Assembly (NCBI GenBank): GCA_947166565.1
Contig: CAMVEL010000003.1
Location: 79,277 to 130,205 of the forward strand
Reading direction: 5' to 3'
Source: an uncultured Erysipelotrichaceae bacterium
GTDB taxonomy: Bacteria > Bacillota_I > Bacilli_A > RFN20 > CAG-826
DNA: 50,929 nt
How positions within the stretch are numbered: the first letter of the stretch is position 1; each line of letters begins with the position of its first letter. Shown here piece by piece: positions 37,301-38,978 of the stretch. The notes under the pieces are model-generated. The model was not told the DNA's origin and searched no databases. It was given only the letters and a program-made list of their open reading frames with translations. The position numbers and the translations under genes are program-made.

Positions 37301-37331
37301 AAAAAGAAAACGCCAGGCATCACTGCCTGGT
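37301..37331 (-). terminator. Terminator of the giant RNA
   Basis: CCAGGCA-GTGA-TGCCTGG with a GNRA-like loop is followed by CGTTTTCTTTTT on the minus strand. It isolates the RNA from the ABC transporter operon about 60 bp downstream. Confidence 0.88.
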
Positions 37332-38752
37332 GTCGCTTGGTCTTTCGAGTTAACGTCTTCAAGACTCCGAAGTTGACGGGGGATTTCATGTTTACGGTTT
37401 ACCGTGTGGGAGATTCCAACCAGCCACTTCCCGAAGGAATCGGTCCTTACCTCGGTTCCTTCTTGAAAGGGAATCGCATTCAGGATCAAGTTTTTGTTTC
37501 TCCGGTTTACCGGCGAGAAGATCTCTTATCTTCCTAGGCCTGTATTGAATTGCTTCTAGCAGGTCTCGACATCGATCTTAGGGTACGTCTTCGTTCGCCT
37601 AAGTATCTTTGCCACGTTCCGACTTCACGAATTGCAGGGTGGAACGACTTCCTTCGAGGACTTGCGTCTTCGATCTCGCCTAGACCGTAGCCTAGGGTCG
37701 AGGCTTTTCCAGCGGTTTACCGCGCGCCGAGCCTCTATTGGCACCGACCTGGTTATGAATTTCCAGGCGTTCACGGATCACCCCGAGGCCGAAGCCAGAT
37801 TGTGATTCGCAACCCCATTTTCAAGTTTCACTTGGCGGAGAGGCTCCCGCCGCACCAGTTAAGGTGGCTACCCAGACATCTCACCAGGGGATTTCACGAT
37901 GGGAGGAGATGGAGGGAGAAGAGATTTTTCGGTTTACCTGAGCCTTTCTTCGGGGCTTGGAGTTTTGAGCTCCTTTGTGGATCGCTCCACATTCCAGATT
38001 TGAATTCCTAGTCATACTAGGCAACGGTAGGAATTCCGTTGCGGACATCATCTTTCGATGCAGCCCGTTGACCTTCGACATCCTTTCGGTGAGGAGAGGG
38101 AGGGGAAGGGACCAATGTTCTCAGATCCTATCTGATGGATTGGCTGTTCCGCGAGAGGAAGTTGCCTTCTTCTCTTGGGCGGTTTGCTGGAGATCAAGCC
38201 AGGTCTGCCGTCATCCTTGTTTTCCTGGTTTACCAGGGGAAGCAGGAATCTTCCAAGTTGTTGGCTTTCGCTTTTTGTCCAGGCTTTGGCAAGCTTGGGG
38301 TTAGAAGCAGGCGTCGCGTTTTCCGGTGTACCGGAGGGGAGGTGCCTTTCCCTGGAGGGGTTCCGACGAAGTTCGGTTGCCCCTGCTTGCGGATATTCTG
38401 ATTTGCACAGCTGTCCGCAGATCGCTTTTTTCTAGGTAATCACTAGCCGTCAGCGAGTCGAGACGGTGGCTTTCCTTTTCCAAAGAAGAGGAGCCCTTGG
38501 CATTCCGTTCCTCCGAAGAAGTTAATCATCGTTTAGCGGAAGCCTTACCCTTTTGATGGTTTACCATCGGGCGGAAGTTCCTTAGGAATCGAGCGTTCAA
38601 GCGACGGGATTCCCTATGTCTCTTTCGAGGCAGAAGGCCTTTGTGGATCGAAGTCCAAGGGGCGTCTTTCTTTCCCTACCGTAGCGATGCAAGATCGTTA
38701 TGGCCTGCTTGGTTTTGCGGGTCCCGAAGGACTCGCCTTACCCATCGCAGGA
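37301..38752 (-). ncRNA. Giant structured non-coding RNA, about 1.45 kb (new candidate)
   Basis: No convincing gene occupies this stretch: open frames are short and overlap on both strands. It is dense with perfect hairpins whose loops read correctly only on the minus strand: GTCC-TTCG-GGAC (38721-38732), TTCC-TTCG-GGAA (37428-37439), CATC-GAAA-GATG (38049-38060), CTC-GAAA-GAG (38620-38629), TGTGGA-GCGA-TCCACA (37976-37991), CCTAGT-ATG-ACTAGG (38007-38021), GCAACGG/CCGTTGC (38021-38042). A stem with loop UAAA, GGTAAACC, recurs six times plus one UACA variant. A -35/-10 pair (38782-38787, 38758-38763) lies at one end and a terminator at the other. It lacks the signatures of RNase P RNA, tmRNA or a group II intron domain V, and is longer than the OLE, GOLLD or ROOL RNAs I know. 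Confidence 0.8.
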
Positions 38753-38757
38753 GAAAT

Positions 38758-38787
38758 ATTTTACTCGCATGCCAAAACACATTGCAA
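38758..38787 (-). promoter_or_regulatory. Promoter of the giant RNA
   Basis: TTGCAA -35 (38782-38787), 18 bp, TAAAAT -10 (38758-38763) on the minus strand. Transcription should begin near 38751, exactly where the sequence changes from AT-rich to hairpin-dense. Confidence 0.6.
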
Positions 38788-38978
38788 GCGTTTTTTTAAA
38801 GTATTTTAATTTTTCAATTATACACTGTATAGTTTGAAACGATTTTACCCGATGTTATCTAGATAATCATAATTTCAAAAAAAGTTAAAAAGTTTTAGAA
38901 AATAGTTGTTTTAGCTTTTTTACCCCTAAAAATCTCCTTATTTAAATATGTTATAATCCTTTTAATCGAGGAACGAAT

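Follow-up and report, generated by a model that had tools for sequence, protein, structure and literature searches.

The window, the whole 50.9 kb (50,929 nt) stretch of DNA that was analyzed, contains between nadE and an ABC exporter a block that almost certainly encodes a real structured non-coding RNA of ~1.45 kb, judging from the comparison of related copies. A sequence-only reading had proposed a stand-alone RNA gene here, running on the minus strand from ~38752 to 37301, and this proposal is borne out by the family homologues and the covarying base pairs described below. The elements of the gene are collected in Table 1. The predicted promoter, TTGCAA-18-TAAAAT (38787-38758), and the predicted intrinsic terminator are both present and both recur in other copies. 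It is this conservation that makes them credible, since scans of the single sequence stand near the chance level, with 3 promoter-like sites by consensus in the block vs 1.4 in shuffles (not clearly above chance) and 3 terminator-like sites vs 3.1 (not above chance). From the same conservation we infer that the giant RNA has its own promoter.

Table 1. Coordinates of the giant RNA gene and its elements in the window
Feature	Position	Strand	Basis
Giant structured ncRNA, type A, ~1.45 kb	37301..38752	-	Full-length homologues, covariation, no conserved frame, no Rfam match
-10 hexamer TAAAAT (TATAGT in most type A copies)	38758..38763	-	Promoter scan and family comparison
-35 hexamer TTGCAA (TTGAC or TTGC in the family)	38782..38787	-	Promoter scan and family comparison
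A-rich tract directly upstream of -35	38791..38814	-	A run in 28/29 regions with a located promoter
Dyad TATAC-AGT-GTATA, 31 bp upstream of -35	38819..38831	-	Dyad comparison across copies
Terminator hairpin, covarying stem and constant loop AGYRAT; T-rich tail to 37301	37309..37334	-	Family comparison
GUANAC hairpin loop, site 198	38559..38564	-	23/23 copies
GUANAC hairpin loop, site 431	38326..38331	-	10/23 copies; commonest alternative GUGCAC
GUANAC hairpin loop, site 529	38228..38233	-	20/23 copies
GUANAC hairpin loop, site 825	37932..37937	-	16/23 copies
GUANAC hairpin loop, site 1042, within the conserved core	37715..37720	-	22/23 copies
GUANAC hairpin loop, site 1252	37505..37510	-	22/23 copies
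GUANAC hairpin loop, site 1360	37397..37402	-	23/23 copies
Conserved core, basis of covariance model R1	37699..37830	-	Common to type A, type B and the second genus
Hairpin 720-739; loop at 38029-38033 in a covarying pseudoknot	38022..38041	-	Fold and covariation
Pseudoknot 3' partner 765-769, paired with loop 728-732	37992..37996	-	Folding-free covariation scan

The block had been described as free of genes, and no gene is found in it. Two plus-strand ORFs of the window (109 and 88 aa), the only ones tested, have no Pfam match, and every one of the six frames contains at least three stops in all 23 full-length or nearly full-length copies, leaving no conserved frame. These 23, used for both the stop and the hairpin counts, are drawn from 30 copies by omitting G025a, G025b, G003 and four partial copies; G020a is kept, although it is cut at a contig end 40 nt short and its 3' part is nearly identical to the window copy. 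The frames of the opposite strand have fewer stops (median 9-11 vs 16-18), and the longest open stretch per copy on that strand has a median of 165 codons vs 126 in mononucleotide shuffles (95th percentile 195) and reaches 349 codons in G027b, as a protein-coding or antisense gene might produce. The long stretches, however, lie in differing frames and places among the copies, and the strong covariation also speaks against such a gene; the openness is taken as an effect of composition and not as a gene. A leader of the next gene fits no better, because 10 of the 30 loci in which a mechanical call places an ORF 3' of the RNA (37 loci in all) have it in antisense orientation, and the fixed same-direction downstream genes of a riboswitch or mRNA leader are missing, the neighbors being mostly different. 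A coding, antisense or leader function is in our estimate extremely improbable.

Across the family the control region has a recurring layout. A TTGAC or TTGC box followed by a TATAGT-like box is located by pattern in 29/32 regions (misplaced in one, G012), and an A run, which we take to be UP-element-like, precedes the -35 box in 28. No promoter is located by pattern in G018b, G026v1 and G026v2, the last two of which have one by eye. Farther upstream a perfect dyad with arms of at least 7 occurs in 17/32 regions, in 13 of them exactly 33 bp from the -35 box, and its arms vary in step with each other. The exact form TAGATAC-N3-5-GTATCTA has nine occurrences in 31 genomes, each directly upstream of the giant RNA; the dyad of the window copy is likely the counterpart of this TAGATAC-type dyad found 33 bp upstream in many copies. 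Of the 34 terminator motifs in the 31 genomes, 30 stand at copy ends, three in remnants at contig ends and one alone. Terminator and length are conserved in the family, and the promoter in most copies. The upstream dyad (38819-38831 in the window) is a candidate site for a dedicated regulator, or may mark the 5' end of a dispersing unit. The full-length copy G018b (L081, G018:C44), for which no promoter is found by pattern, is perhaps silent or differently driven.

Fold, covariation and repeated hairpins

Covarying base pairs among homologues were sought in an alignment of 27 of the 30 type A copies (four or five of them partial), the near-identical G025a, G025b and G003 being left out, and covariation is strong. 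Against a tree-based null of 20 alignments of the 27 copies, 30 column pairs lie above the score reached by at most one null pair in total, and all 30 are base pairs that are canonical in at least 80% of the sequences. The RNAalifold consensus has 364 pairs in 72 helices, 70 of them with three or more pairs; 90.1% of the paired positions are canonical, falling to 36-46% when the partners are slid by 1-3 columns, and 240 pairs show changes on both sides. A fold derived from 10 copies is 88.3% canonical in the other 17 (35-47% when slid), and the reverse cross-test from the 17 to the 10 gives 81.9% (36-46% when slid). A folding-free scan finds 30 covarying stems and none in each of five column-permuted controls. 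The predicted fold fully contains twenty-seven of these stems, and two are additional to it. In one of the two (728-732 with 765-769), the loop of hairpin 720-739 pairs with a strand farther downstream to form a covarying pseudoknot. The second, 804-807 with 817-820, is not claimed because all its pairs compete with predicted pairs. GU exceeds AC among the mismatches of paired columns (641 vs 271), which agrees with transcription from the minus strand, although the predicted fold itself favors GU.

Taken over 1.45 kb, the comparison shows a predicted fold of ~70 helices and one pseudoknot under strong selection, and in this class of 1.45-1.6 kb RNAs the covariation is strong enough to fix much of that predicted fold. 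The molecule is a large ornate structured RNA, a long non-coding RNA with an extensive fold supported by covariation. Two of its conserved loops carry palindromes, of 6 nt at 998-1009 in 19/26 copies and of 4 nt at 1393-1401 in 21/25. These loops would suit an RNA-only homo-oligomer, a cage or other particle in which copies of the RNA dock together and enclose or sequester something, as would the style of the molecule, which is that of ROOL, GOLLD and OLE, for all three of which PMC12286853 reports homo-oligomers. The palindromes, however, change without compensation (GAAUCC for GAAUUC in type B, GAAUAC in 3/26 type A copies), and the folding-free scan shows no loop-loop pairing beyond the one pseudoknot. 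Such an oligomer is possible, if rather unlikely.

The most striking repeat, absent from the sequence-only reading, is a hairpin with a UANA loop closed by a G-C pair, referred to as GUANAC. Hairpins of this kind with stems of at least 4 pairs number 5.7 per RNA vs 0.09 on the other strand and 0.03 in shuffles (23 copies), and the window copy has six and none on its other strand. They stand at eight fixed places, each occupied in 7-23 of the 23 copies and five of them in 20-23, and are built with variable stem letters, a constant loop and a mostly A-rich 3' flank. Each of three type B copies has 5, and the four copies of the second genus have 4-6. We know of no named motif of the G[UANA]C hairpin kind, and a literature search for it returned nothing useful. 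The tetraloops that had been noted as specific to the minus strand are real across the family, with GNRA hairpins of at least 4 pairs at 8.0 per RNA vs 0.96 on the other strand and 1.3 in shuffles, and UUCG hairpins at 1.1 vs 0.6 and 0.08; in the window copy alone the GNRA bias is weaker (6 vs 3; UUCG 3 vs 0).

A constant loop on variable stems, present about six times per molecule, might serve a protein-titrating sponge whose GUANAC hairpins would bind a regulator in many copies. RNAs of the CsrB type likewise repeat a single loop motif along one RNA; they are much shorter, have GGA loops and are not known for a comparably deep fold, whereas the giant RNA has UANA closed by G-C. Six or so sites in 1.45 kb are few for this purpose, and much of the remaining fold and of the unpaired sequence outside the GUANAC hairpins is also conserved, which a sponge would not need; by analogy with CsrB the sponge is conceivable and quite improbable. 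The hairpins could instead resemble docking units, at which either multiple copies of a single protein bind or tertiary contacts form, and they may be tertiary modules that involve no protein at all.

Copies, carriers and known RNA classes

The picture of a single gene given by the window is corrected by its relatives, which make up a dispersing family that has multiple copies and no fewer than two subtypes. Among 96 related genomes, blastn finds matches in 19/31 genomes of the same genus (the window's own included) and in 0/65 others, and the homologues of the window RNA run full length and are mostly 63-69% identical to it. A profile search of the fetched loci gives 30 copies or part-copies of type A (mean pairwise identity 63%), of which 25 are full length at 1,389-1,473 nt, besides three further short remnants at contig ends. 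Type B, a diverged subtype of ~1.6 kb at three loci (one in G011:C18, two in G026), retains the core, the hairpins, the terminator and a similar promoter layout. With a covariance model of the core (133 positions) the RNA is found in 23/224 genomes of the bacterial family, namely the 19/31 of the genus and four of a second genus, where 4/37 genomes have one copy each, the one in G235 strongly diverged. A fifth match in the second genus (5/37 when it is searched alone) is weak and was rejected.

An order-wide search of 279 genomes finds the same 23 carriers and no more, and samples of the class (395 genomes) and phylum (392) yield only the window's own genome plus one rejected match; most of these wider genome searches used strict filters, through which remote forms could be missed. 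Two matches were discarded, that in G460 (class-wide, E 3.8e-4), which overlaps a tRNA gene (tRNA-Leu by eye) in antisense and is not matched by the RNA profiles, and that in G239 (E 3.4e-4), which is coding-like, has no GUANAC hairpin and has its sole profile match elsewhere at E 0.5. No match to the window RNA is found by blastn in 50,697 phage records or in plasmid records, and IMG/VR viral contigs have 0 matches to two core patterns. A pattern scan of named species genomes gives 37 stretches, of which 32 are labeled Erysipelotrichaceae, Bacillales, Bacilli or Firmicutes; the titles of 9 of these 32 records name the rumen, omasum or abomasum of goat or deer, and genome names starting with RUG are presumably rumen genomes. 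The other 5/37, in Proteobacteria or Acidobacteria, are regarded as chance because a profile match is present in only one of them and is 24 nt long. Some gut bacteria of ruminants carry this RNA gene, often in several copies. It is absent from 12/31 genomes of the genus, including one rated 100% complete, and is therefore dispensable for the genus.

None of the 4,227 families of Rfam 15 is matched in the window by cmscan at the gathering score, and the RNA region searched at E values up to 5 gives two weak matches, both unrelated. The Rfam covariance models of ROOL, GOLLD, OLE and HEARO do not match, nor do those of group II introns, rRNA, RNase P and tmRNA; ARAGORN likewise finds no tmRNA. 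The sequence-only reading had seen no rnpB, tmRNA, rRNA or group II intron signature. Group II introns and rRNA are bacterial structured RNAs of similar or larger size, from which the giant RNA differs in being framed by a promoter and a terminator and in having no Rfam match. To our knowledge, only very few stand-alone folded RNAs of bacteria are much longer than 0.8 kb. OapA is one protein partner of OLE. Two others, OapB and OapC, appear in reference titles in PMC12286853. In PMC12286853, ROOL is represented by a 659-nt example from the cow rumen, ROOL and GOLLD are phage- or prophage-encoded and often near tRNA islands, and GOLLD, with many members >0.8 kb, is the largest of three known ornate classes.

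On that description, the giant RNA is like ROOL a large ornate non-coding RNA with a rumen-linked example, but at ~1.45 kb it is about twice as long as the 659 nt of that ROOL example and shows no phage, tRNA-island or Rfam link in the searches made. It shares with GOLLD the character of a giant ornate RNA, GOLLD being phage-linked and the giant RNA having no Rfam match, and with OLE that of a large ornate bacterial RNA, differing in that OLE has protein partners and the giant RNA no fixed gene neighbor. No tRNA gene lies in the 50.9 kb window, and 27 other loci hold three single tRNAs, two tmRNAs and no tRNA island; the neighbors examined look like ordinary chromosomal genes and not like the phage or prophage setting of ROOL and GOLLD. 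The giant RNA is of the ROOL/GOLLD kind and does not belong to their families. A literature search, for which most subscription journals and bioRxiv as a collection were outside the scope, found no description of such an RNA, and the candidate set from the human microbiome in PMC8040213 spans 27-219 bp. The class is very probably undescribed so far. The sequence-only proposal of a new class of ornate large RNA accordingly gains support from the lack of an Rfam 15 match, the strong covariation and the lack of a conserved frame.

Placement, dispersal and possible roles

The gene stands alone as had been suggested; its position between nadE and the ABC exporter, in turn, is not typical and is common, among the genomes searched, only to the window genome and one near-identical genome. 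Elsewhere in the genus, nadE is found on contigs apart from the RNA. Neighbors mostly change from locus to locus and none consistently adjoins the RNA, and the neighborhood therefore points to no protein partner. Genes read by eye as housekeeping-like are among them (serS, recN, pepF, an M18 aminopeptidase). Clustering of the neighboring proteins gives two larger sets, eight generic ABC ATPases and six M18 proteins, next to one set of three and some pairs. Of the 17 genomes with a close M18 orthologue, 8 have that gene no farther than 5 kb from the RNA, and its neighborhood is perhaps an old site of the RNA.

In the tree of copies the within-genome pairs G028a/b, G027a/b, G004a/b and G024a/b are sisters with support of 99-100 and have unrelated flanks, and the second-genus copy G233 groups with the partial copy G021a (98), nested among first-genus copies. 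Close homology of the sister pairs covers roughly the dyad, promoter, RNA and terminator, and downstream it stops at or within ~30 nt of the terminator tail in the pairs compared (G024a/b share ~30 nt more). The gene is considered to disperse because its copies stand at different loci, some as sister copies within one genome. Sister pairs and cross-genus placement point to copying to new places and to transfer, gene conversion and rearrangement also being possible.

The multiple copies, the sister pairs with unrelated flanks and the nested second-genus copy would also be produced by a selfish dispersing gene. Such a mobile element would be non-autonomous, and its structured RNA would help it to copy or integrate itself while the host gained little. 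Further points in its favor are the limits of sister-pair homology, near the dyad and promoter upstream and the terminator tail downstream; the exact dyad occurs only with the giant RNA and the terminator likewise with one exception, and in one genome a toxin-antitoxin pair lies between two copies of the RNA 3' end. No recurring recombinase or reverse transcriptase, however, is found among the annotated neighbors, and no clean empty site emerged from tracing the flank genes nadE and ABC permease through the genus or from comparing the M18 aminopeptidase locus. Gene conversion could equally produce look-alike sister copies, and both copies of G000 occupy the same loci in the near-identical G025. 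A selfish element is unlikely.

The reading preferred here, which we hold to be reasonably probable, is a new class of ornate large RNA in which the gene product is the folded molecule, with the scaffold, the docking hairpins and the spread included. A chromosomal gene with a conserved promoter and intrinsic terminator would yield an RNA that is itself the product and may act as a structural scaffold, its repeated GUANAC hairpins would hold a large particle together as docking units, and the gene would spread as new copies at other loci, at times crossing between genera. That the RNA is a scaffold which repeated docking hairpins hold together is a plausible mechanism, put forward tentatively and falling somewhat short of an even chance. 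A bolder form, speculative and held with still greater reserve, would make this the largest class of bacterial stand-alone structured RNA outside rRNA and introns, built on GUANAC, assembling a large particle of RNA or of RNA and protein, and dispersing as a dyad-promoter-RNA-terminator unit through the Bacilli of the ruminant gut. According to PMC12286853, known large ornate RNAs proved to form unexpected RNA-only particles, and a giant class with a partly fixed fold, multiple copies, two subtypes and a hairpin module is a ready target for structural biologists. Gut Bacilli hold giant RNAs that are missing from the current RNA library, and a dispensable, dispersing example makes the purpose of ornate large RNAs testable.

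Several individual loci have further peculiarities. In G004:C7 (L069:9210-10055) the RNA is followed by an ORF pair read by eye as a RelB/DinJ-type antitoxin and a PIN-type toxin and then by a second copy, of ~37 nt, of the RNA 3' end, so that the ORF pair stands between two RNA terminators in direct repeat, an arrangement that would fit insertion at the 3' end. Antitoxin-like ORFs lie a few genes from the RNA in G246 and G019 (L107 and L075) and a PIN-like ORF lies near it in G246, again by eye. The ends of ssrA are known island sites, and two genomes, each from a different genus, have a tmRNA gene no more than 3 kb away from the RNA (L066:5165-5565 and L107:5945-6343). At L079 (G003:C198) one RNA is bordered upstream as in G024 copy a and downstream as in copy b, through either recombination between copies or an assembly chimera. 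The RNA of G020:C1 (L003/L062), within which the contig breaks off, is mosaic-like, with a 3' half nearly identical to the window copy and a diverged 5' half, as either gene conversion or a chimera would give.
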